The position numbers and the translations under genes are program-made. 64,000 nt of DNA from Candidatus Tectimicrobiota bacterium (GTDB lineage: Bacteria; Tectomicrobia; Entotheonellia; Entotheonellales; Entotheonellaceae). The notes under the pieces are model-generated. The model was given only the letters and a program-made list of their open reading frames with translations, was not told where the DNA came from and searched no databases. Below, piece by piece: positions 552-33,916 of this stretch. The stretch spans positions 1-64,000 of the forward strand of contig BPKO01000006.1 of NCBI GenBank assembly GCA_026005175.1, given 5' to 3'. How positions within the stretch are numbered: position 1 is the stretch's first letter; each line of letters begins with the position of its first letter.

Positions 552-1295
552 CTACCACACCGCCTGCGGCAGCGGCAGGCCTGCAAAGGCGTCGGCGGGC
601 AGCGGCAGCGACGACGTGATGCCCGCCGCGTCGAGCAGGGCGTAGAGCTGCCGCAGGTGCTGCGCCGCGTGCCACACGGTGCGCTCGAGCAAGTCCGCGG
701 GCCACCTGGCGGCCGTAGTAAGTGTCGACCTCGCCGGCAGTGGCGTGAGGCTGCCCCAGCCATGCCGCCAGCTGCCGGCGCACCCTTTCGCCGTAAGCGG
801 CCAGCGCCTCCCCGCTGTCGAGGGCGCTGGCGGCCGCTCCTCAAACCACGCCTCGGGCAGGTAGCCCTGTTCTTTGGCGTCGCGGTAGCTCAGGGCAACA
901 CGAAAAATATGGTAGCCCAAGTCGCGCAGGGTGCGGTCGCGCCCCGGGGTTTTCACCGCCAGGTGCTGTGGGGGCACCTGGCGCAGGGCCTGGGGGGCCG
1001 CGGCTTCCAGGATGCGGTCGAGGCGGCGGCCCAGTTCCTCCGGCGGCAGCCGCTCCCCCTCGGCGTAAGCCACCCCCAGCAGTTCTGCCAGCGCCTTGGG
1101 ATTCCATCCGTGCACGGCGCGCTCGCCCGCCACCACCGCCGGCACGCGGGGAATACCCAGGCGGGCCAGCTCCTGCATGGCGGCAGGCTGTGCCTCGGTA
1201 TCGATGGCCACAAAGGCAATGCCCCACGACGAAAGCAACTCTTTCGTTTTGGCGCACGAGCTTCAGCCCGGCCGGTAGTAAAGACGCACCGTCAT
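552..1295 (-). CDS. Selenocysteine glutaredoxin fused to a DinB-like domain
   Basis: The reading frame starts at ATG 1295 after a GAGGGGAG ribosome site and runs MTVRLYYRPG, then an in-frame TGA (1265-1263), then SSCAKTKELL. A glutaredoxin/thioredoxin-fold protein would have Cys there, so the motif is U11-S-S-C14. The fold continues with a conserved cis-proline region (IPRVPAVVAGE) to about residue 75. After a linker comes a DinB/YfiT-like helical domain (LGYHIFRVALSYRDA, later WHAAQHLRQLYALLD). Between about 840 and 690 the conserved sequence moves to another frame (QLAAWLGQPHATAGEVDTYYGRQ) and back, so two compensating indels are present. The Sec assignment rests on the position of TGA at the redox site and the hairpin at 1229-1247. 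The function is probably thiol/selenol redox with an unknown partner. The alternative, an internal stop from a TGC-to-TGA error, is less likely given three similar cases in the window. Confidence 0.78.
1229..1247 (-). promoter_or_regulatory. Candidate bacterial SECIS hairpin of the glutaredoxin-DinB gene
   Basis: On the coding strand, 15 nt after the in-frame TGA, ACGAAAG (1247-1241) pairs perfectly with CTTTCGT (1235-1229) around loop AGTTG. The loop begins 23 nt after the TGA and its second base is G. A short stem with G in the first two loop bases at about 16-37 nt from UGA is what bacterial SelB-binding SECIS elements look like. The same spacing recurs at the other three candidate selenoprotein genes here. 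Confidence 0.6.
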
Positions 1296-6393: not shown

Positions 6394-7359
6394 ATGAAAC
6401 GCATGGCTTTGTGGAGCGCCGTTTTCCTGCTGGCTTTCGTGGCGGTGTCCTGGGCGCAGCAGGCCTTTCCGCAGCGCCCCATTGAGTTTGTCATCATGGC
6501 TGGTACCGGCGGCGGGGCCGACCGCTACGCCCGCTTTATCAGCGCCCTGGTCGACAAGCACCGGCTGTCGCCACAGCCCCTGCTGCCAGTCAACCGCCCG
6601 GGCGGGGCGGGGGCGGTAGCCATGAACTACGTGTACAGCAAGAAAGGGGACCCCTACGTCATCGTCATCACCCTCAACAGCTTTATCACCACCCCGCTCA
6701 TCCAGCGCTTGCCCTTTAGCTACCGCGACTTTACCCCCATCGCCATGATGGGCCTTGACACCTTCATGCTGTGGGTGCCGGCCGACAGCCCCTTCCAGAC
6801 GGCCAAGGATCTTCTTGACGCCGCCAAAGCGCGCAGCCTGACGGTGGCCGGCACCGGTTCCAAGCAGGAAGATGAGATTCTCTTTCGTACCATGGAGCGC
6901 CGCTTTGGCCTCAAGCCCTTCCGCTACGTGCCTTACAAAGGCGGAGGGGCGGTGGCCGCCGCCCTGGTGGGCAAGCAAGTGGAAGCCACGGTGAACAACC
7001 CCAGCGAGCAGCTGTCGTTTTACAAAGATGGCCGCAGCCGTCCCTTGGCCGTCTTCCTGAAGCAGCGGGTGGATCAGCCCTTGTGGAAAGACGTGCCTAC
7101 CATCAAAGAAGCCACGGGGGAGGAAATCGAGTACGTGATGATGCGCGGCATTTTTGCCCCGGGCGGCATTCCAGAAGAGGCCCGCCGCTGGCTCACCGGC
7201 CTCATGAAGAAAGTGTTTGCCACCGAGGAGTTCCAGAAGTTCCTCCTCGACAACGCCCTCTTTCCCAAGTTCATGCCGGGCGAGGAGCTGGGCCGCTTCG
7301 TGGCCGAGTTCAGCGCCTTTCACGAAGGCCTAATGCGCGACTTGGGCTGGATCCAGTGA
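6394..7359 (+). CDS. tctC: Tripartite tricarboxylate transporter, periplasmic binding protein
   Basis: A 321-residue extracytoplasmic solute receptor of the TctC (Bug) family. It has a signal peptide (residues 1-21, ending VSWAQQ), then FPQRPIEFVIMAGTGGGADRYAR, the typical first strand and anion-binding loop, and VNRPGGAGAVAMNYVYSKKGDPY. YVPYKGGGAVAAALVGKQVEATVNN is the second ligand loop. It delivers a carboxylate to the TctAB membrane pair encoded next. AAGGAGG precedes the ATG. The ligand cannot be fixed from sequence; the family binds citrate, other dicarboxylates, and aromatic or cyclic acids. Confidence 0.9.
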   Translation: MKRMALWSAVFLLAFVAVSWAQQAFPQRPIEFVIMAGTGGGADRYARFISALVDKHRLSPQPLLPVNRPGGAGAVAMNYVYSKKGDPYVIVITLNSFITTPLIQRLPFSYRDFTPIAMMGLDTFMLWVPADSPFQTAKDLLDAAKARSLTVAGTGSKQEDEILFRTMERRFGLKPFRYVPYKGGGAVAAALVGKQVEATVNNPSEQLSFYKDGRSRPLAVFLKQRVDQPLWKDVPTIKEATGEEIEYVMMRGIFAPGGIPEEARRWLTGLMKKVFATEEFQKFLLDNALFPKFMPGEELGRFVAEFSAFHEGLMRDLGWIQ

Positions 7360-11272: not shown

Positions 11273-11914
11273 ATGACGCCAGCTTGTCCCGGGGCGGCAG
11301 ACCGCCTGTCCCAGCTGCTGGCCACTTTGCCCCGCTACTGCCCGGCGGAGCAGCGCTTCGCCTTGCAGCTCTACCGCCGGCTGGCCACCGGAGAGCCGGT
11401 GCCCCGCGCCGCCCTAGCAGCCGAAGAGGCCCTCTGGCAGCGCTTTGCCGGCCGCCTGCGCGATGACGCCGCGGGACGGGTGGTGGCCTTTGGCGGCCTG
11501 TCGCTGCTGCCCACGGCGCACCGCATGGAGGTCGCCGGCCGCCTGCTGTACGCCTGGTGCGCCTGGGATACCCTGTTCCTGCCGGCGCTGCTGCAGCAGC
11601 CGGCCCGGGTCACTTCGTCTTGCGCCGTGACCGCCACCCCCGTGTGCCTGGAAGTGACGCCGCAGCGCCTTGCCCGCTGCCAGCCCGCCAGCGCCGTGGT
11701 GTCGTTTGTGGTGCCTGCCGCCTGGGAGGGCGACGTGGTGGCCGCTTTTTGCTGCCACGTGCGCTTCTTCCGCGACCTGGCCACCGGCCGGCAGGGGCTG
11801 GCGTCACACCCTGAAGCCTGGCTGCTGCCGGTGGCCGAGGCCTTTGCCCTTGGCCAGCGCAAAGTCGCCTTGCAGTTTGACGCCGTGGCGCTTGGGCAAT
11901 GCGAGGCATGCTGA
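11273..11914 (+). CDS. merB: Alkylmercury (organomercurial) lyase
   Basis: MerB splits the carbon-mercury bond of organomercurials and hands Hg(II) to MerA or a thiol carrier. This 213-residue protein has the catalytic residues at classical positions: C96 and D99 in YAWCAWDT, structural C117 in TSSCAVT, and the second catalytic Cys within FCCH at residues 160-161. The start at ATG 11273 follows AGAGGAGCC; codons upstream are open but the length from this start matches the family. Its end overlaps merR by 7 nt. Broad-spectrum (organomercurial) resistance is implied. Confidence 0.95.
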   Translation: MTPACPGAADRLSQLLATLPRYCPAEQRFALQLYRRLATGEPVPRAALAAEEALWQRFAGRLRDDAAGRVVAFGGLSLLPTAHRMEVAGRLLYAWCAWDTLFLPALLQQPARVTSSCAVTATPVCLEVTPQRLARCQPASAVVSFVVPAAWEGDVVAAFCCHVRFFRDLATGRQGLASHPEAWLLPVAEAFALGQRKVALQFDAVALGQCEAC

Positions 11915-12315
11915 AAATCGGCCAGCTCGCCGCCCGCTCGGGGCTGAGCCGCGACGCCATTCGCTTTTACGAACGCGAGGGGCTGCTGCCCCGGGCGCCC
12001 CGCACCCCGAGCGGCTACCGCCTCTACGCCCCGGAAACCCTGACGCGCCTGCAGTTCATTAAGCGCGCCCAGGCCCTGGGCTTTTCGCTTGCCGAGATCC
12101 GGGAGCTGCTTGCCGGCTACCAGGACCCCGAGGAGTGCCGGCGCGTCAAGGCGCTGCTGGAGCAGAAAATCGCCGAGCTCGACCGCAAGCTGCACGACAT
12201 GCAAGCCCTGCGTGCCGTGCTCGCCCGCTACCACGAGGCCTGCTGCCAGGCCCTGGCCACCCCCCAGCCGCCCCAGCCCTGCCCAGTGCTGCAGCTCATC
12301 CACGATGCCCCTTGA
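11908..12315 (+). CDS. merR: Mercury-responsive MerR regulator
   Basis: 135 residues. The N-terminal winged helix (LKIGQLAARSGLSRDAIRFYERE) is followed by the long dimerisation helix. The three Hg-binding cysteines of MerR are in place: C in DPEECRRVK, the EACC pair and QPCPVLQ. It should repress the mer promoter without Hg(II) and untwist the 20 bp spacer when Hg(II) binds. The start is ATG 11908 inside the end of merB, so merB and merR are co-translated. Its TGA stop lies within the -35 box of the downstream promoter. Confidence 0.93.
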   Translation: MLKIGQLAARSGLSRDAIRFYEREGLLPRAPRTPSGYRLYAPETLTRLQFIKRAQALGFSLAEIRELLAGYQDPEECRRVKALLEQKIAELDRKLHDMQALRAVLARYHEACCQALATPQPPQPCPVLQLIHDAP

Positions 12316-12343
12316 CCCTAGAGTCGACTCCAGGGTGTAGCAT
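12312..12343 (+). promoter_or_regulatory. MerR-type mer promoter/operator with 20 bp spacer
   Basis: The -35 TTGACC (12312-12317) and -10 TAGCAT (12338-12343) are 20 bp apart, the over-long spacing typical of MerR-activated promoters. Between them lies the dyad ACCCTAGAGT / ACTCCAGGGT (12316-12336), nearly perfect. The merR stop codon (12313-12315) overlaps the -35, so merR reads straight into its own target promoter. Confidence 0.85.
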
Positions 12344-12376: not shown

Positions 12377-12709
12377 ATGGCACGACGGCACTGGTACGGC
12401 AAGGAGGGGCTGCTCGGCCTGGGGGCGGCGCTGGCCGCCTCCACGTGCTGCCTGCTGCCCCTGGCGGTGGTGTTCCTGGGGCTGGGCAGCGGCGCCTTCA
12501 TGATGACCACCATGCGCTGGCGCCCGGTACTCCTGCCCCTGGGGCTGTTGGGGCTGGCGGCGGCTTATTACCTGCACTTCCGCGAGCGGCGCCGCTGCCG
12601 CACCCAGGGCTGCGCCATGGCCGGCAAGACCTTCAACACGGTGATGCTGGCGCTGGCCACGCTGATCATGCTTGGCGTGATCTGGGCTGACTTTTTTGCC
12701 GCCCGCTAA
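12377..12709 (+). CDS. merT: Mercuric transport protein MerT
   Basis: 110 residues with three membrane spans. The first span carries the Hg-relay pair in AASTCCLLPLAV. The cytoplasmic loop has RRRCRTQGCAMAGKTF with the second cysteine pair, and the third span is MLALATLIMLGVIWADF. It takes Hg(II) from a periplasmic carrier and passes it inward toward MerA. GGGAGGAAG precedes the ATG and it is the first gene after the mer promoter. The frame is intact. Confidence 0.92.
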   Translation: MARRHWYGKEGLLGLGAALAASTCCLLPLAVVFLGLGSGAFMMTTMRWRPVLLPLGLLGLAAAYYLHFRERRRCRTQGCAMAGKTFNTVMLALATLIMLGVIWADFFAAR

Positions 12710-12720
12710 AGGAGAAGCGT

Positions 12721-12972
12721 ATGCACCCGGAAGTGGTGGTCTACACGGCAGCCTCGTGAGGGGCCTGCCAGCACGTGAAAGAGTTTCTTTCCGCACACGG
12801 TATTGCCTTTACCCCGCGCGACGTGACCCGGGATCCTGCCGCCCGGCAGGCGCTGCTGGCCCTCACCGGACAGTCGGCCACGCCGGTGGTGGTGGTGGGA
12901 AACGAAGTGGTGGTGGGCTTCGACCGCGGCCGGCTGCAGCGCCTGCTGCGCCTGCACCAGGAGGCTCGCTGA
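12721..12972 (+). CDS. Selenocysteine-containing glutaredoxin-like protein in the mer operon
   Basis: An 83-residue glutaredoxin/NrdH-like fold. The frame reads MHPEVVVYTAAS, TGA (12757-12759), GACQHVKEFLSAHGI, so the active site is U13-G-A-C16 where homologues have CxxC. The remainder is standard: FTPRDVTRDPAARQALLAL, then SATPVVVVGNEVVVGFD with the cis-Pro and the GFD end motif. GGAGAAG precedes the ATG 11 bp after merT, and its stop overlaps the next start (TGATG). A hairpin at 12777-12791 is a candidate SECIS. It probably reduces or carries mercury or mercury-modified thiols in the cytoplasm. Read without recoding it would be a 12-residue peptide, which is implausible in an intact operon. 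Confidence 0.85.
12777..12791 (+). promoter_or_regulatory. Candidate SECIS hairpin of the mer glutaredoxin
   Basis: GAAAGA (12777-12782), loop GTT, TCTTTC (12786-12791). The loop starts 24 nt after the TGA and begins with G, matching the position and loop rule at the other three genes. Confidence 0.55.
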
Positions 12973-13262
12973 TGCGGCTCCTTTGTCCCGGCTGCGGCCA
13001 GGCGCGCGAGCTTGGCCCCGAGGTGCGCCTCGGCGACGAGCTTACCTGCGAGGCCTGCGCCGGCGTGCTGCTGCAGGTAGTCGAAGAAAACGGCGTCTTG
13101 AGCCTGCGCGAGGTGCCGCAGGCTTCCTGCCCGCAGTGCGAAACGCGCCTGCGCCTGCCCGCGGGCGTGCAACCCGGCGACACCCTGGTGCACTGCGGCC
13201 GGCGCCTGGTGGTGACGTACGCCTTTGGCGCTTACGCCCTCGAGCCGCCAGGGCGCTTCTAA
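12972..13262 (+). CDS. Small zinc-ribbon protein of the mer operon
   Basis: 96 residues with three cysteine pairs: CPGCGQ at the N-terminus, TCEAC near residue 28 and SCPQCET near residue 56, plus a lone HCGRR near residue 76. The layout suggests two zinc-ribbon or rubredoxin-like knuckles. It is coupled to the Sec-glutaredoxin gene (start overlaps its stop). I do not recognise a named family. A role in metal (mercury or zinc) binding is inferred from cysteine content and context only. Confidence 0.75.
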   Translation: MRLLCPGCGQARELGPEVRLGDELTCEACAGVLLQVVEENGVLSLREVPQASCPQCETRLRLPAGVQPGDTLVHCGRRLVVTYAFGAYALEPPGRF

Positions 13263-13298: not shown

Positions 13299-13655
13299 AT
13301 GCAACGCCAAGCACGAATAGCCGCAGTCCTGCTCTTGCTGCTGGTGCTGCTGGCGGGCTGCGGCACCTCGGAGGCGCCGGGCAACGGCGCTTCGCCGTCG
13401 GCTGGAGCGGCCCCGACGTCCTCCCCCGCGTCCCTGCAGCGCCTCACCCTGCGCATTACCGGCATGTCGTGAGGCTCCTGAGCGCTCATCGTGCAACTGG
13501 CCTTGGCAAGGCTGGAAGGCGTTTACGAGGCAAAAGTGAGCTTTGGCGAGCAGCGCGCCTGGGTGCAGTACGACCCGCAGAAGGTAACGGCAGCGCAGAT
13601 GATAGAGGCGGTGCAGCGCGCTGGCTTTGGCGCCGAAGTCCTGGCAAGCGATTAG
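13299..13655 (+). CDS. MerP-like HMA lipoprotein with double selenocysteine (UxxU)
   Basis: 118 codons. A lipoprotein signal peptide (residues 1-20, lipobox LAG-C21) leads to a low-complexity linker and an HMA ferredoxin-like domain (residues 48-118). The metal motif reads GMS-TGA-GS-TGA-AL (TGA at 13470-13472 and 13479-13481) where MerP and CopZ-type domains have GMTCxxC. After both TGAs the domain continues perfectly: LALARLEGVYEAKVSFGE, VQYDPQKVTAAQMIEAVQRA, GFGAEVL. The start at ATG 13299 follows AAGGAGA. It should sit on the outer face of the inner membrane, or in the periplasm, as the Hg(II) collector feeding MerT, using two selenols. A hairpin follows at 13497-13515. No other MerP is present in the operon, which supports the role. 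Confidence 0.83.
13497..13515 (+). promoter_or_regulatory. Candidate SECIS hairpin of the HMA selenoprotein
   Basis: CTGGCCTT (13497-13504) pairs with AAGGCTGG (13508-13515) with two G-U pairs, loop GGC. The loop begins 24 nt after the second TGA and 33 nt after the first, so one hairpin could serve both codons. Confidence 0.6.
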
Positions 13656-13670: not shown

Positions 13671-14282
13671 ATGGCCCCGCTCTGGCGGCGCCAGGCGGCA
13701 GCGCCGGCCGATGCCGCCCTCATGCAACGGGTGGTGGCCGGCGACGCCGAAGCCTTTGCGCAGCTGGTGCGCCGCTACGAGCATCCCCTTTACAACTACC
13801 TGCGGCGCATGGTCCAAGACGAGGCGCTGGCCGCCGACTTGCTGCAGGAGACCTGGCTGCGCCTTTTCCAGCACGCCCACCGCTACGATCCTGCCCGCCC
13901 GCTGAGCACCTGGCTGTTTGCCATTGCCTACCACAGCTGCCTCGACGCCCTGCGCCAGCGGCAGCGCCGCCAGGTCGTAACGTCCGCCGCTGCCGCCCCT
14001 GGCCCCGCCGATCCCCAGCGGGCGCTGCTCGCCCAGGAAGCGCAGGCGGCGGTGCGGGCCGCGGTGGCCAGCCTGCCGCCAGCGCAGCGGGCGGTGCTGC
14101 TCCTGCGCCACTACCACGGCCTGTCGTACCAGGAAATCGCTGCCGTGGTGCAGTGCCCGGTGGGCACGGTGAAGTCGCGCCTGCACCACGCCCTGCGCCA
14201 CTTGCAGCAGACGCTGGCGGCCTGGGGCGTGGTGGAAAACGCCGCCACCGACAGGCTCGTGGAGAAAACCCGCGGCGAGTGA
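13671..14282 (+). CDS. ECF-family RNA polymerase sigma factor
   Basis: 203 residues. Region 2 is at about residues 20-95 (ALMQRVVAGDAEAFAQLVRRY, LQETWLRLFQHAHRYDP, LSTWLFAIAYHSCLDALRQR). Region 4 is at about 125-180 (LPPAQRAVLLLRHYHGLSYQEIA, VGTVKSRLHHALRHL). The start is ATG 13671 after GGGGAGAGCAGCC. It lies inside the mercury operon, 16 bp after the Sec-HMA gene, and its likely anti-sigma partner is at 14959-15771. It probably directs a stress regulon linked to metal exposure; the target promoters were not identified. Confidence 0.88.
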   Translation: MAPLWRRQAAAPADAALMQRVVAGDAEAFAQLVRRYEHPLYNYLRRMVQDEALAADLLQETWLRLFQHAHRYDPARPLSTWLFAIAYHSCLDALRQRQRRQVVTSAAAAPGPADPQRALLAQEAQAAVRAAVASLPPAQRAVLLLRHYHGLSYQEIAAVVQCPVGTVKSRLHHALRHLQQTLAAWGVVENAATDRLVEKTRGE

Positions 14283-14339: not shown

Positions 14340-14642
14340 ATGGCCACCCCCCCGATAGCCCGACGGCGCTGGCGCGCCACTCTGAGCGTGGTCGTTGCTT
14401 TGCTGACTTGTCCCTGCCACTTGCCGCTGTGGCTCGCGCTCCTGGCGGGCACGGCGGCAGGCGGCTGGCTTAGCCACCACCTGTGGCTGGTGCTGCCGGC
14501 CATGGGAGGTCTTTTCGCGGGGGCGCTGTGGGTTGCCGCCCGTGCCCTGGCCGGCGGTGAGGCGGCGTGCTGTACGGCGGCGCCAGAGCAGGCGGAGAAA
14601 GGTGCGCCCTCCGCCGACGCCGTCGCGGAGAAGCGGCCATGA
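14340..14642 (+). CDS. merE: MerE-like mercury transporter
   Basis: 100 residues with the MerE hallmark TCPCHLPLWLALLAGTAAGG in the first span and a second span LWLVLPAMGGLFAGALWV. MerE carries inorganic and methylmercury across the inner membrane. The C-terminal tail adds CC near residue 77. AGAAGGAGA precedes the ATG. It overlaps the next gene by 4 nt (ATGA). Confidence 0.85.
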   Translation: MATPPIARRRWRATLSVVVALLTCPCHLPLWLALLAGTAAGGWLSHHLWLVLPAMGGLFAGALWVAARALAGGEAACCTAAPEQAEKGAPSADAVAEKRP

Positions 14643-14944
14643 GCGGGCGCTGGTGGAGCGCAGGGTCGGTGCTGGCAGCGCTGGGCGTGGCGGTGTGCTG
14701 CCTGGGGCCGCTGCTGTTTGCGGCGCTGGGGCTGAGCACGCTGACCAGCCTGTGGCTCCTGCGCCACCTGGTGCCGTACCGCAACGTCTTTCTGGCCCTC
14801 ACGTTTTTCTTCCTCGGCCTGGCGTTTTATGCCACTTACCGCCGTGGCCGGCGGGCCCGCTGGCCCGAACAGGCGGTGCTGTGGGGGGCGACGGCCTTGG
14901 CCTTGGGGCTGGTGGGCTACAGCCTGGCCGTGGAAGGGTTTTGA
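14639..14944 (+). CDS. MerT/MerC-like membrane protein
   Basis: 101 residues with three predicted spans. The first holds a vicinal pair (LGVAVCCLGPLLFAALG) like MerT, followed by FLALTFFFLGLAFYATYRR. Unlike MerT it lacks the cytoplasmic cysteine pair. It is the second MerT-like protein in the operon and is translationally coupled to merE. An Hg(II) import role is inferred. Confidence 0.75.
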   Translation: MSGRWWSAGSVLAALGVAVCCLGPLLFAALGLSTLTSLWLLRHLVPYRNVFLALTFFFLGLAFYATYRRGRRARWPEQAVLWGATALALGLVGYSLAVEGF

Positions 14945-14958
14945 GAAGGAGAGGGGCG

Positions 14959-15771
14959 GTGGACTGCCGGGCCGTCCAGGACGCACTGGTGGAAGCGCTT
15001 TACGGAGCGCTGCCGGCGGCACGCCAGGTGGCGGCGCACTGCCAGGCCTGCCCGTCTTGCGCCGCGGCCTGGGAGGCGCTGCAGCGCACCGCGGCCCTGC
15101 TCGCGCAGTGGCCAGACGAGCCACCGCCGGCTGCGGTGCGGCAGCGGGTTCTGGCGCAGGTGAGGGCCCTGGCGGCGGCGGGGCGCCGGCCCTGGTGGCA
15201 GGGCGGACTGGCGCGCACGGCGCTGGCCGTGGGTGCTGGACTGGCGCTGCTGGTGCTCACCGTGCTCGTGCTGGCGCCCTGGCTTCCCCTTGACGCCGTA
15301 ACCCCTCGTCTTTTGCTCCTCTGCGGCGCCCTGTGGGGCGGGGCGTACATCGGCCTCTGCCGCCTCGCCTTTGCCGGCCAGGAAGAAGGCCTTGCCGTGG
15401 CGGCCGCGCAGCTGGCCCTGCTGGCGCTGGCGGTGGCGACCTTGCTGCTTGCTGCGGCGCGGGCGCTCGGGCTGGCGGCCTGGCTTCCGGCGGCCGGGCC
15501 TGCGCTTTTTGGCGGCGGCCTGGCCCTGGTGGCCTTGGGGGTAAGCAGCGGGTGCAGTGGCCGCTGGCTGGCGGTGCGCTCCGCCGTGCAGGCGCTGCTG
15601 GCGGCGTGCTTCTTCTTGCTGGCCGTCGCCCCGGGATTGCTTATGTTCTGCGTTCCCTTCACCCTGGGGGCCTACGCCGGGCTGCTGCTGGCCGTGGGGT
15701 GTGGCGCCGGGGCAGGGGTGCTGGGCGGCGCGCTGGCGCAGGGAGGAATCTGGCGCCATGGGCGGGAATGA
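14959..15771 (+). CDS. Membrane anti-sigma factor with zinc-finger N-terminus
   Basis: 270 residues from GTG 14959 (GGAGAGGGGC upstream). The N-terminal 45 residues hold the anti-sigma H-x3-C-x2-C signature (AHCQACPSCAAAW). A first span follows at about residues 85-105 and then a polytopic C-terminal half (about six spans) with GVSSGCSGRWLAVRSAVQ. It probably sequesters the ECF sigma encoded three genes upstream and senses a membrane or metal signal. A multi-span sensor domain is unusual. The 3' end overlaps the IS5 remnant by 14 nt. Confidence 0.7.
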   Translation: MDCRAVQDALVEALYGALPAARQVAAHCQACPSCAAAWEALQRTAALLAQWPDEPPPAAVRQRVLAQVRALAAAGRRPWWQGGLARTALAVGAGLALLVLTVLVLAPWLPLDAVTPRLLLLCGALWGGAYIGLCRLAFAGQEEGLAVAAAQLALLALAVATLLLAAARALGLAAWLPAAGPALFGGGLALVALGVSSGCSGRWLAVRSAVQALLAACFFLLAVAPGLLMFCVPFTLGAYAGLLLAVGCGAGAGVLGGALAQGGIWRHGRE

Positions 15772-16177
15772 AGCGAGGGCAAGAACGCGAGCCCCCTATC
15801 CCAGCGACTTAAGCGAGCGGCAGTGGCGGCGCATTGCCCCGCTGCTGCCGCCGGCGCGGCCCGGAGGGCGGCCTGCGGAAGTGGACCGCCGGGAAATCGT
15901 TAACGCCATCCTCTACCGGCTGCGCAGCGGCTGCTCCTGGCGCATGCTGCCGCACGACTTGCCGCCCTGGGGCACGGTGCACTTTTACTTTCGCCAGTGG
16001 CGGCGCGACGGCACCTGGGAGCGCGTCTGCCGCGCGCTGCGGCTGCGGGAGGACTCCCAGGCGGAGGGAGACAGGCGGGAACAGGTCTTTACAATGCAAC
16101 AACAGAGAAACAACGGAGAACGGAATGATGATCTGTTTTGTTCGAAATCGACTCGCAATTTTGACACTTGTGATTAG
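15758..16177 (+). pseudogene. Truncated IS5-family transposase (N-terminal domain only)
   Basis: The protein from ATG 15758 contains the IS5/DUF4096 N-terminal domain: YPSDLSERQWRRIAPLLPPAR, GGRPAEVDRREIVNAILYRLRSG, WRMLPHDLPPWGTVHFYFRQW, DGTWERV. Similarity stops near 16070; the remainder to the stop at 16177 is unrelated and the DDE catalytic domain is absent. I see no terminal inverted repeats. It marks the left edge of a lower-GC stretch that carries the DUF302 gene. Confidence 0.8.
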
Positions 16178-16610
16178 CAGTTTGAGCGCCATCCCCCTGG
16201 GGGCAACGGCCCAGCAAGGGAGCCCACCGCCATTTCAAATGGTAGTTCTATCCAAATATGACTTTTCAGACACACTGGCTTTGCTGAAGGCGGCTATCGA
16301 AAGCGAGAATTTAATGCTCATCAAAGAGATTGACCCGCAGCAGATGCTTCGTTTGGTCGGTGTGAACCCCAATGGCATGCGCCAGCTTCTCTTCTTTCAT
16401 CCGCGTTTTATGAAGCGCATCATGGAGGCCAATCCGCACGCTACCCTTGAGCCGCCGCTGAAAGTTGTCGTTATGGAGGCCCCTCAGGGAAAGGCAATAG
16501 TTAAGTACGTAAAGCCGTCGGCGATTTTTAGTCGCTACGAGGGTCTTGCGGCCCTTGCGCAAGAGCTGGACACCTTACTGGCCAGAATCGTAGCCAATGT
16601 GCAGCAATAG
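16125..16610 (+). CDS. Secreted DUF302-domain protein
   Basis: 161 residues. Signal peptide about 1-30 (ending ATAQQ), then the DUF302 fold: ALLKAAIESENLMLIKEIDP, VNPNGMRQLLFFHPRFMKRIM, PLKVVVMEAPQGKAIVKYVKPS. DUF302 proteins occur near copper, thiol and redox genes and their function is not established. Base composition is visibly less GC-rich than the neighbours, and the gene directly follows a transposase remnant, so it was probably acquired separately. The start is ATG 16125 after GGAGAA (ATG 16128 also possible). Confidence 0.85.
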   Translation: MMICFVRNRLAILTLVISSLSAIPLGATAQQGSPPPFQMVVLSKYDFSDTLALLKAAIESENLMLIKEIDPQQMLRLVGVNPNGMRQLLFFHPRFMKRIMEANPHATLEPPLKVVVMEAPQGKAIVKYVKPSAIFSRYEGLAALAQELDTLLARIVANVQQ

Positions 16611-16625: not shown

Positions 16626-17406
16626 ATGCCTTCCGTGGGAGCCCGCGTGCAGCGTGCCGTCCTCGTTCTGCTGGCCCTGCTTGCCGGTGGCGCGATCCCC
16701 ATTCAGCTGGTCACCCTGTCGTTTGGCTATGCCCAGTACATAAAGAAAGTAATGCTTGGCCCTAAGGTGATCATGACCGCCCACCAGTTTGCCAGCTGGT
16801 ACCTTCCCTGGGTCTATCTGCCTGCCATGGGAGTGCTTGCGGCCATTGTCTTATACGCACGCCGGCGTCATCCGGACCTCTGCCGTCGTATCCTCGTTGG
16901 CTTTGGCATGGGCGCGGTGGCCACCGTAGCACTCGATGCGGCCAGAGAAGCCGGGGTGATTCACGGCTGGCTGCCTGGTGACACGCCTGTGATGTTTGGC
17001 AAAATGGCAACCGGAAGCCAGCATTTTGCCGTTGTTTACGCCACTGGCTTGCTGATTCACTACCTGAACGGCGCTGACTTTGGCTTGGTGTATGCCTTTG
17101 TTTGGGGCAAGAGAAGGAGCTATCGAGAAGCGGTACTCTGGGCGACAGGATGGGCGTTGCTCGTCGAGTTGGGGATGATGCTGGGGCCTCCGATGGGGCC
17201 CATGGTAGGCCCCCTTTGGGGTCCGTTATGCCTGGCCCCAGCTATTCCTGCTTACCCTGGTGGCGCACGTGGCCTTCGGGGTTGCCCTGGGGCTCTTGGT
17301 GCAGACGTTTTTACAGGATGCAGATCGCGGGTGGTTCTGGCACTTCCTCAGGGGGCCCACCCCGCTCCACAGCAGGGCAGTGTCTTCACACCAAGCGCCG
17401 GTGTAA
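16626..17406 (+). CDS. Membrane protein of the mercury locus (one frameshift)
   Basis: About 260 codons. Several membrane spans: VLVLLALLAGGAIPIQLVTL, WVYLPAMGVLAAIVLYARR, RILVGFGMGAVATVALDAAREAG, AVVYATGLLIHYLNGADFGL, AVLWATGWALLVELGMMLGPPMG. Near 17215 (a G/C-rich run) the frame changes; the tail in the new frame (QLFLLTLVAHVAFGVALGLLVQ and onward) ends at 17406. I do not recognise the family. It follows the DUF302 gene by 15 bp. A transport role is possible but not shown. Confidence 0.65.
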
Positions 17407-17445
17407 TTTGTCCGCTGAGGACTCGATCGCTTTACGAGGCAGCGT

Positions 17446-17520
17446 ATGTCCACTCCGCTTGAGTTGGCTCTCTGCTGCGGCGTGTTCCTGGCTCTTATGC
17501 TTGCATTCTTCAAGACATGA
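17446..17520 (+). CDS. Predicted 24-residue membrane peptide
   Basis: The frame MSTPLELALCCGVFLALMLAFF-KT encodes a single hydrophobic span containing a vicinal CC pair. A weak GAGG site lies upstream and merA begins 11 bp after the stop with its own GAGGAG. Position and the CC pair in a membrane helix recall the MerT relay. It may equally be chance; only conservation would decide. Confidence 0.35.
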   Translation: MSTPLELALCCGVFLALMLAFFKT

Positions 17521-17531
17521 GGAGATAGCCA

Positions 17532-18945
17532 ATGTACGACTACGACCTGCTGGTCATTGGCACCGGCGGTGGGGGAATGGCGGCCGCCATCCGCGGCGCC
17601 GAGCTGGGAGCGCGGGTGGCCATTGTCGAAGCCGGCACCATCGGCGGCACCTGCGTCAACCGCGGCTGCGTGCCCTCCAAGACTCTCATGCGCGCCGCCT
17701 TGGTCTACCACCAGGCCGGCCACCACGGCTTTGCCGGCGTGCACACGCGCCAGGAAGGCGTCGACTGGCCCAAGCTCATCGCCCAGAAGGAGGCCCTCAT
17801 CGAGGGCCTGCGCCAGGAGAAGTACCTCGACGTGCTGGCCGCTTACGACCGCATTACTTTGCTGCGCGGCTGGGCACGGCTGCAAGGAGAAGGCCGCGTC
17901 GCCGTAAGCGAGCGCCTCTACCGCGCCCAATACGTCGTGCTGGCCACCGGAGCGCGCCCGCACATCCTGCCTCTGGAAGGCATCGAGACGGTGGAAGTGC
18001 TCACCAGCACCACCGCCATGACCCTGCCGCAGCAGCCGCGCTCCTTGCTGGTCATCGGCGGCCGTGCCGTGGCGCTGGAGCTGGGACAGATCTTTGCCCG
18101 CCTGGGCACGCGCGTCACCCTCTTGCAGCGCAGCCCCCGCCTTTTGCCCGAGCACGAGCCGGTGATTGCCGAGGCCCCTGGCCGACTACCTGCGGCAAGA
18201 AGGACTGGAGGTGCTCACCGGGGTGCGCCCCCTGGCCATTCGCCAGGAAGGCAGCGAAAAAGTGGTGCTGGCCGACGTCAACGGCCAACCGCGGCCTTTT
18301 CGTGCCGAGCAGGTGCTCATGGCCACCGGGCGGGTGCCCAACACCCAGGACCTGGGGCTGGAGACGCTGGGCATTGCCAGGCGTGAGGGCGGCGCCATCG
18401 AAGTGGACGCCACCCTGCGCACCAGCCACCCCCGCGTCTACGCCGTGGGCGACTGCACCACCTTGCCGCAGCTCGTCTACGTGGCGGCAGCGGCCGGCAG
18501 CATGGCAGCAGAAAACGCCCTCACCGGCGCCGGCAAGCCGCTCGACCTCACCGTGCTGCCCGACGTGATCTTCACCGATCCCCAGGTGGCCACTGTGGGC
18601 CTCACCGAGGCGCAGGCGCAAGCAGCCGGCTATGTGGTGCAGACGGCGGTGCTGCCTTTGGCTTACGTGCCGCGGGCCATTGCGGCGCGCGACACGCGCG
18701 GGCTCATCAAGCTGGTGGTCGACGCCGCCAGCGGTCGCTTGCTGGGGGCGCACGTGCTGGCCGCCGAAGGCGGGGAGGTGATCCAGACGGCGGCGCTGGC
18801 CATCGAGTGCGGGCGGCGCTACGGCTTTCGCGTCGAGGACCTGCGCCAGCTGCTCTTCCCTTACCTGGTGCAAGTCGAAGGGCTGAAGCTGGCGGCGCAG
18901 ACCTTGGCCAAAGACGTCACCAAGCTCTCCTGCTGCGCCGGCTAA
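17532..18945 (+). CDS. merA: Mercuric reductase (one frameshift)
   Basis: MerA reduces Hg(II) to volatile Hg(0) with NADPH and FAD in the cytoplasm. The N-terminal FAD motif is VIGTGGGGMAAAIRGAELG, the redox pair C41/C46 is in GGTCVNRGCVPSK, the NADPH domain starts SLLVIGGRAVALELGQ, and the C-terminus ends KLSCCAG, the Cys pair that delivers Hg(II). There is no N-terminal HMA domain. Near 18170-18180 the frame changes (family sequence resumes LADYLRQEGLEVLTGV), a single-base indel. The stop TAA (18943-18945) runs into a GGGACAGG repeat, which probably terminates the mer transcript. Confidence 0.93.
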
Positions 18946-19002
18946 AAAAGGGACAGGCGACTTTTTCAGGGCGAGGCGCAAAAAGTCGCCTGTCCCCTTT
19001 TC
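18943..19002. repeat. GGGGACAGG palindromic repeat after merA
   Basis: The merA stop TAA runs directly into AAAAAGGGACAGGCGACTTTTT; the second arm AAAAAGTCGCCTGTCCCCTTTT ends at 19000. The first arm has GGG instead of GGGG. It lies between the convergent merA and Uma2 genes and also touches the Uma2 stop (19004-19002). Confidence 0.9.
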
Positions 19003-33485: not shown

Positions 33486-33541
33486 CGCCAGGGAAAGCGG
33501 CCGCTAGAATGCGGAGGAACCTGCCGAAGAAGGAGAGCGAG

Positions 33542-33916
33542 GTGGAGATTTTCATCGAATACTGCACGGAGTGAAACTACCTGCCCCAGGCTGCAAGTTT
33601 GCAGTCGGCCATCAAGGAAAAGTACGGCATCGTGGCCAAGCTGGTAGAAGGCCACGGCGGTGCCTTTGAGGTCACCATCAACGGCAAGAAGGTCTTTTCC
33701 AAGCTCAAGAGCATGCGCTTCCCCGAGCACGAGGAGATTCTGGCCAAGATCGCCGAGCTGCAGGGGGCCCCTGAGGGAGCGGGCTTGCCGGTGTGGACCG
33801 GAAGCCCGCTCGCGGGGCGAGACGAGAGGGCTCTTGACATCTGGCAGCGCTCTGCTAGCCTTCCCACCCGCAGAGAGCGCCGTAGGGTAGCTCAGTCGGT
33901 AGATGCAGCGGACTGA
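33542..33916 (+). CDS. SelW/Rdx-family selenoprotein
   Basis: From GTG 33542 (AAGGAG 6 bp upstream; ATG 33509 is an in-frame alternative) the frame reads VEIFIEYCTE, TGA (33572-33574), NYLPQAASLQSAIKEKYG, giving the CxxU motif (C8-T-E-U11) of SelW/Rdx proteins. It continues KLVEGHGGAFEVTINGKKVFSKLKSMRFPEHEEILAKIAELQG, a complete thioredoxin-like Rdx fold with the usual GxFEV turn. The open frame runs to 33916 into the tRNA, but the natural end is probably near 33770, where a G-run indel would create a TGA. Function is thiol/selenol redox. A hairpin at 33589-33606 is a candidate SECIS. Confidence 0.88.
33589..33606 (+). promoter_or_regulatory. Candidate SECIS hairpin of the SelW-like gene
   Basis: GGCTGCAA (33589-33596) pairs with TTGCAGTC (33599-33606), one G-U pair, with G at the loop start. 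The loop G is 23 nt after the TGA, close to the 24 nt seen at the other three genes. Confidence 0.6.
33834..33861 (+). promoter_or_regulatory. Promoter of the tRNA-like gene
   Basis: TTGACA (33834-33839), a 16 bp spacer and TAGCCT (33856-33861), placed 18 bp before the tRNA 5' end. It supports the view that the SelW-like protein ends before this point. Confidence 0.5.

Follow-up and report, generated by a model that had tools for sequence, protein, structure and literature searches.

The window studied here, the whole stretch of 64,000 nucleotides, contains a selenocysteine (Sec) glutaredoxin (Grx) gene that is joined to the gene of a LysW-like double zinc ribbon within a mer-type operon. The gene, its recoding, the conservation of its partner and its membership in the operon were established computationally. 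The pair is probably a relay that passes Hg(II) on toward a MerA that has no NmerA domain. The full reading is that the Sec-Grx and the ribbon keep the Hg(II) ligands of this operon reduced and hand Hg(II) from MerP(UxxU) and MerT to MerA, and we give it a probability of roughly 55%. The features are collected in Table 1.

Table 1. Features of the mer-type operon region, numbered from the first letter of the window
Feature	Position	Strand	Evidence
merB (alkylmercury lyase)	11273..11914	+	Pfam PF03243, E 7.3e-32, above cut-off
MerR-family regulator	11899..12315	+	NCBIfam ZntR 117.4 and 109.7 bits, MerR 108.7 bits; all below cut-off
Near-perfect palindrome, 2 mismatched positions over 22 bases	12315..12336		between TTGACC and TAGCAT
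MerT-like membrane protein	12377..12709	+	Pfam MerT, E 2e-5, 25.0 bits, below cut-off of 32.9
Sec glutaredoxin, active site U13-G-A-C16	12721..12972	+	translation, Pfam, homologues, AF2 model, fold match
TGA codon 13 of Grx, read as Sec	12757..12759	+	translation, homologue alignment, hairpin comparison
SECIS-like hairpin of Grx, GUGAAAGA-GUU-UCUUUCCG	12775..12793	+	loop/apex 23 nt after UGA; cross-sequence comparison
LysW-like double zinc ribbon, all-Cys form	12972..13262	+	profile and structure matches, conservation across loci
Lipoprotein-like MerP/HMA-domain protein, GMSUGSU, two in-frame TGAs	13299..13655	+	Pfam HMA, E 2.6e-12; NF041115
TGA read as Sec, U58 of MerP-like protein	13470..13472	+	translation, hairpin
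TGA read as Sec, U61 of MerP-like protein	13479..13481	+	translation, hairpin
SECIS-like hairpin of MerP-like gene, CUGGCCUU-GGC-AAGGCUGG	13497..13515	+	loop 32 nt after first UGA, 23 nt after second
ECF sigma factor	13671..14282	+	Pfam Sigma70_r2 and r4_2
MerE-like membrane protein	14340..14642	+	Pfam MerE, 36.8 bits, cut-off 22.8
Second MerT-like membrane protein	14639..14944	+	Pfam MerT, 34.5 bits, cut-off 32.9
Anti-sigma-like membrane protein	14959..15771	+	NCBIfam anti-sigma, 35.9 bits, below cut-off of 100; no Pfam match at E 1e-4
merA-like flavoprotein	17532..18945	+	Pfam Pyr_redox_2, E 1.7e-36, on N-terminal part

The glutaredoxin gene and its homologues

When the TGA is translated as Sec (U), the Grx gene encodes MHPEVVVYTAASUGACQHVKEFLSAHGIAFTPRDVTRDPAARQALLALTGQSATPVVVVGNEVVVGFDRGRLQRLLRLHQEAR. 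Without recoding the product would end after 12 residues, as the first-pass annotation of this DNA had said. With C in place of U, the protein is a PF00462 glutaredoxin (E 9.1e-17, profile 1-60 of 60, Pfam cut-off passed); together with the TGA found at the active-site Cys codon in homologues, this confirms the proposed Sec glutaredoxin with a U-G-A-C active site. All the NCBIfam Grx models matched left the protein under their cut-offs, with 78.2 of 88.55 bits for TIGR02196 and 60.1 of 66 for NF041212. The AF2 model has a mean pLDDT of 91.4, and among solved folds 7c10 ('Dithiol cGrx1') is the nearest by sequence identity (46%, rmsd 0.9; sequence profile E 1.3e-29). The stop codon of the Grx gene (TGA, 12970-12972) overlaps the ATG of the zinc-ribbon gene to form TGATG. 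This agrees with the coupling suggested before, and the downstream ribbon gene is real and conserved.

Grx matches were found in 34 of the 98 genomes searched, several of them with an internal TGA, and homologues from other genomes align past the TGA of the window gene (for example G077, E 8.9e-23, 51% identity). The first-pass annotation had named homologues in which the frame past the TGA is not conserved as the finding that would speak against it; the reading frame after the TGA is kept in the Grx forms aligned. A scan of public genomes gave 132 related loci, of which 80 were kept. In 106 of 108 scanned loci there are 107 Grx rows, in which the exact codon is TGA in 49 and Cys in 58; L105 and L152 escaped the pattern used for this count, and L105 carries TGA. 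The duplicate loci L060/L072, L069/L086 and L139/L179 were each counted once, and so were identical 63- or 60-base stretches, leaving 47 TGA rows for the energy test and 46 for pairing and covariation.

Among the named hosts are Rokubacteria, Tectomicrobia, Methylomirabilota, a deltaproteobacterial MAG and a Nitrospinae genome. The viral contigs gave only one distant Cys relative. In the Grx tree, which was built on 77 columns and has many open forks, a clade of 33 rows (98/94) is all-Sec. It holds 24 of the 25 ribbon-paired rows and nine unpaired ones, Sec Grx for which no zinc ribbon was recognised within the stretch read. Sec glutaredoxin (PF00462, UxxC) is listed as experimentally verified in Table 1 of PMC13188914. 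The window protein shares with it the fold, the Pfam family, the UxxC active site and a bSECIS-type hairpin, and differs in that its clade is found mostly beside a LysW-like ribbon and often in mer-type operons. Two sister Grx genes in Bacillota carry Cys (L075) and TGA (L080); the Cys gene still holds GAAAGAGTTTCTTTC, possibly a trace of a recent exchange between Sec and Cys.

Recoding of the glutaredoxin TGA

The same genome encodes a complete Sec machinery: tRNA-Sec (76.5 bits, anticodon tca, ARAGORN), selB (391.5 bits), selA (637.6 bits) and selD (378.9 bits), the last itself with an in-frame TGA. Genome-wide reassignment of TGA was ruled out, as the Grx, merB and merR genes themselves end on TGA. 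After the recoded TGA, the Grx message can form a hairpin with the stem GUGAAAGA/UCUUUC.. around a GUU loop. The bSECIS limits stated in PMC13188914 are a loop of 3-9 nt, G in the first two loop positions, a spacing of 16-37 nt and an MFE of at most -7.5, and the window Grx hairpin lies within them (-8.9 kcal/mol, GUU loop, spacing 23). Taken singly, the window hairpins are no more stable than shuffled sequences (z 1.24 for Grx and 0.37 for the MerP-like gene), so the case for a SECIS element rests on comparison across sequences.

In this comparison, the best constrained hairpin averaged -11.1 kcal/mol in 47 TGA rows versus -2.2 in 57 Cys rows (Mann-Whitney p 4e-15; here and in the other hairpin-energy tests the p-values assume independence of sequences that are in fact related, and are a guide only). 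The cross-locus scans of Grx, ribbon and MerP hairpins let loops reach 14 nt, and the published 3-9 limit was applied to the window genes only. At least six of the eight stem pairs form in 43 of 46 TGA forms versus 4 of 57 Cys forms. Within the 46 aligned TGA rows, the stem is paired in 92.1% of cells, compensatory changes, on both sides of a pair, occur in 30 cells (7.7 in shuffles), and sliding the partner lowers the covariation score from 0.295 to at most 0.146.

It is very improbable that translation truly ends at this TGA and that the frame is a gene in decay or an assembly artefact. The broken frame of merA in the same region and the unexceptional hairpin of the window taken alone would fit such an account, but 46 distinct sequences drawn from several phyla share a TGA at this codon and show compensatory changes in their hairpins, and the all-Sec clade and the Sec machinery also speak against it. 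Codon conservation and hairpin covariation rule out a plain stop or pseudogene, and recoding of the Grx TGA as Sec is near certain.

The zinc-ribbon partner

The structure model of the ribbon protein is a tandem ribbon (pLDDT 92.2). Its sole high-probability match in the PDB is LysW (3vpb_E; probability 1.00, E 0.023; sequence profile E 4e-4). The LysW/ArgW amino-group carrier is its nearest match in sequence and fold, over about 48 columns. The window protein differs from this carrier in having two tandem ribbons and relatives with TGA at ligand positions. Membership in LysW was ruled out by score (30.2 of a cut-off of 75 bits), and no lysine-biosynthesis gene was noticed near the window ribbon. 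The FmdB family (TIGR02605), listed in Table 1 of PMC13188914 as a UxxU zinc-ribbon selenoprotein, has in common with it the zinc-ribbon type and a Sec predicted in a CxxC motif, whereas the Sec pattern of the ribbon relatives here is CxxU...CxxU. The window ribbon gave no match to TIGR02605 at E 0.01, a level reached weakly by four of nine aligned ribbons (best 2.9e-4). The ribbon profile has strong matches (E <1e-19) in 8 of 386 genomes, its own included (G000, G035, G052, G077, G099, G143, G156 and G279), and ribbon matches are present in 14 of the 18 genomes of G143's phylum.

Among 26 distinct ribbon sequences, 13 contain in-frame TGAs, 20 in total, and the other 13 contain none. Every one of these TGAs stands in a knuckle of the first ribbon, where it takes the place of the second ligand Cys. 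Site 1 is U in 10 sequences, C in 15 and R in one; site 2 is U in 10 and C in 16; the remaining conserved Cys codons are never TGA in these 26. Judged from this pattern, the ribbon ligand Cys appears to have been swapped for Sec in many related bacteria. Hairpin energy did not separate U from C ribbons at site 1 (10 U/15 C, p 0.62) or at site 2 (10 U/16 C, p 0.07), Cys forms folding hairpins as well as Sec forms, and the Sec claim for the ribbon therefore rests on the exact placement of the TGAs only. Neither a LysW-like zinc-ribbon selenoprotein nor a Grx/ribbon pair is present in the 2026 inventory (PMC13188914, Table 1), and none was found in the accessible part of PMC12013277 or in the literature searched, a search whose reach excluded most subscription papers.

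The mer-type operon and its MerP-like selenoprotein

The mer operon setting proposed earlier stands, as a mer-type operon, on the Pfam matches of the neighbouring genes. MerA, transport of the MerT/MerP/MerE type and a regulator of the MerR type, which together were taken to define a mer operon, are all present, with the regulator and the first MerT-like protein below their cut-offs and merA frame-broken. This break, a single one near 18.17 kb (by eye), could reflect decay of the operon or an error in the assembly. The merA-like protein has no N-terminal HMA (NmerA) domain and ends in SCCAG (start and C-terminus by eye). Between the anti-sigma-like gene and merA lie two further genes and an apparent remnant of a transposase (by eye). 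Between the mer genes and merA are a DUF302 protein (16128-16610, Pfam E 3.6e-9) and a membrane protein gene (16626-17465) with an apparent frame break near 17.24 kb (by eye).

The first MerT-like protein is 52-54% identical to MerT-like proteins beside the Grx and ribbon genes of L058 and L059. The palindrome before its gene sits between -35-like and -10-like hexamers (by eye) and is likely the operator of the MerR-family regulator. We take it to resemble operators of the ZntR/CadR type.

The MerP-like gene starts 327 bases downstream of the Grx gene, and with it the operon has three selenocysteines in two proteins. Its product passes the cut-off of NF041115 (UxxU_metal_bind) with 95.2 of 95 bits, that is, by 0.2 bits. 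This UxxU metal-binding (seleno)protein family is given as 'putative mercuric reductase' in Table 1 of PMC13188914; in the window the domain is preceded by a lipoprotein-type leader, and its gene is the second one downstream of the Sec-Grx gene. Ocean data had already yielded selenoproteins under the names MerP and putative mercuric transport protein (PMC2398784). Across loci, the MerP-like hairpins average -13.4 kcal/mol in 12 UU forms versus -5.4 in 13 CC forms (p 9e-5), with two UC forms excluded from the test. Compared with a classical mer operon, the window has the same MerR/T/P/E/A/B-type set and adds the three Sec residues, the zinc ribbon, the ECF sigma factor and anti-sigma-like genes and a MerA without NmerA. 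Elsewhere the same genome encodes a second UxxU MerP-like protein (GMIUPVU, L071 3738-4313, C13) and another UGAC glutaredoxin (L064 4135-4431, C1).

The glutaredoxin/ribbon pair across loci

In all, 26 distinct loci from several phyla contain the Grx/ribbon pair, and in every one of them the paired Grx is the TGA form. The Grx gene is usually first; the ribbon gene precedes it in L058 and L139, and merB lies between the two in L116. The one-base overlap of the two genes in the window is seen again in L060/L072. MerP, MerT, MerT2, MerA or MerB matches are present at 14 of the 26 loci, one of which (L079) has no more than a distant merA fragment, and MerE is present at three further ones (L197 by Pfam, L199 and L200 by eye), which brings mer-type genes to 17 pair loci with L079 included. 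At the other nine (L072, L086, L177, L193, L194, L195, L196, L204 and L205) no mer gene was seen in the stretch read, which is short for several of them. Thirteen pair loci have a MerP-like match, and in 11 of these it carries two TGAs. In L058 (about 6432-6737) and L139 (4609-4914) a MerT-like membrane protein has UU in place of CC, encoded by two neighbouring in-frame TGAs, and at both loci MerP is followed by a thioredoxin-like UxxC gene.

The doubly recoded MerP-like gene, the apparent Sec ribbons elsewhere and the pairs with no mer gene seen nearby go beyond the first-pass annotation. Since the Sec-Grx and UxxU families are already listed and the ribbon and the pair were not found there, the Grx itself belongs to a known Sec-Grx family, and the new element, within the literature searched, is the Grx/ribbon cassette with a ribbon in which Cys and Sec are interchangeable.

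Proposed function and alternatives

The reading best supported is that the Sec-Grx and the ribbon jointly act on soft-metal ligands. SelB and tRNA-Sec recode the UGA at the conserved hairpin to give the Sec Grx (UxxC), which in the mechanism we propose would keep the CxxC/CxxU knuckles of the ribbon and other cytosolic Hg ligands reduced. Reduction of such knuckles is known chemistry of the glutaredoxin fold. The selenolate-thiolate pair of Grx may also bind or exchange Hg(II), and Hg(II) that enters through MerP(UxxU) and MerT would pass to Grx, then to the zinc ribbon and finally to MerA. Ledwidge et al. reportedly found in 2005 that NmerA takes Hg(II) off proteins and delivers it to the catalytic core of MerA. 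Because the MerA of the window lacks NmerA, this cytosolic carrier is missing, and the Grx/ribbon pair is a candidate for it. We infer a contact between Grx and ribbon, a reductase role of Grx and a transfer of mercury; the earlier suggestion that Grx may reduce or strip mercury from MerT and MerA is likewise drawn from operon context and chemistry. A glutaredoxin partner has precedent in Synechocystis, where a MerA-like enzyme depends on a glutaredoxin and is under glutaredoxin 1 control (Marteyn et al., as related in PMC8261052).

The main rival is a general thiol/selenol redox pair, for example one that repairs the ribbon or other targets of metal stress and is fed by a thioredoxin-reductase-like flavoprotein, with no part as a mercury carrier; its presence in mer operons would then be a recruitment that reflects the oxidative stress caused by Hg(II). 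We regard this as possible though rather doubtful. The pair loci with no mer gene in the stretch read count for it and against a mercury role, and so does the thioredoxin-reductase-like gene that follows the pair at L197 (Pfam) and at L193, L194 and L205 (by eye); the pair may thus serve general redox or other metals. The nine unpaired Sec Grx of the same clade also weigh against the reading as a working pair. A known Sec-Grx, that of Kim et al. in 2011, is also said to act as the reductant of another selenoprotein. Against a purely general role stand the mer-type genes found at 17 of the 26 loci with the pair, even if L079 contributes only its distant fragment, and the two-TGA MerP-like matches that accompany the pair at most loci with a MerP-like match. 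It is unlikely that the metal is not, or not only, mercury and that the mer-type transporters have been reused for Zn, Cd, Pb or another soft metal. The regulator does score highest to ZntR models and the palindrome may resemble a ZntR/CadR-type operator, but the regulator models are all under cut-off, so the ranking of ZntR and MerR says little, and the operon also encodes a MerB that passes its Pfam cut-off, a MerE-like protein and a merA-like protein with SCCAG at its C-terminus.

A mercury relay by the Sec-Grx/ribbon pair could be extended as follows, which we offer tentatively. The ribbon may be an undescribed selenoprotein family with a metal site that draws two of its four ligands from Sec. 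With the Sec-Grx, MerP(UxxU) and the UU MerT-like proteins of L058 and L139 it would form a selenolate relay that takes Hg(II) from the outer side of the membrane to MerA, with Cys and Sec exchanged ligand by ligand between species. If true, mercury resistance would here be built on selenium instead of sulfur ligands. The affinity of selenium for mercury exceeds that of sulfur, and a loss of selenoprotein function is often held responsible for the toxicity of mercury in animals; a bacterial resistance cassette with Sec in several metal-handling proteins would make that weakness a tool. The 26 loci are a natural Cys/Sec series at identical ribbon ligands, so the question why a cell would choose selenium for a metal ligand and not for redox catalysis becomes testable pair by pair. 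Such genes are easily annotated as fragments because the TGA cuts each of them.

Other features of the window

Two more putative selenoprotein genes were observed in the window. The product of the gene at 705-1295 (minus strand, TGA at 1263-1265) is longer and has its glutaredoxin domain at the N-terminus (Pfam E 3.1e-11), with the active site U-S-S-C; the hairpin of this gene is of the GAAAG-AGUU type, as in the Grx gene at 12721-12972. The gene at 33509-33751 (plus strand, TGA at 33572) encodes a SelW-like selenoprotein with CxxU (Pfam Rdx E 6.1e-19; NF041051, 87.8 of 88 bits), with a hairpin of -13.0 kcal/mol. A repeated element, AAAAAGTCGCCTGTCCC, has 14 matches in the window versus 0.01 expected (for example 18950-18996 and 1317-1363), and its copies often form inverted pairs about 30 bases apart.
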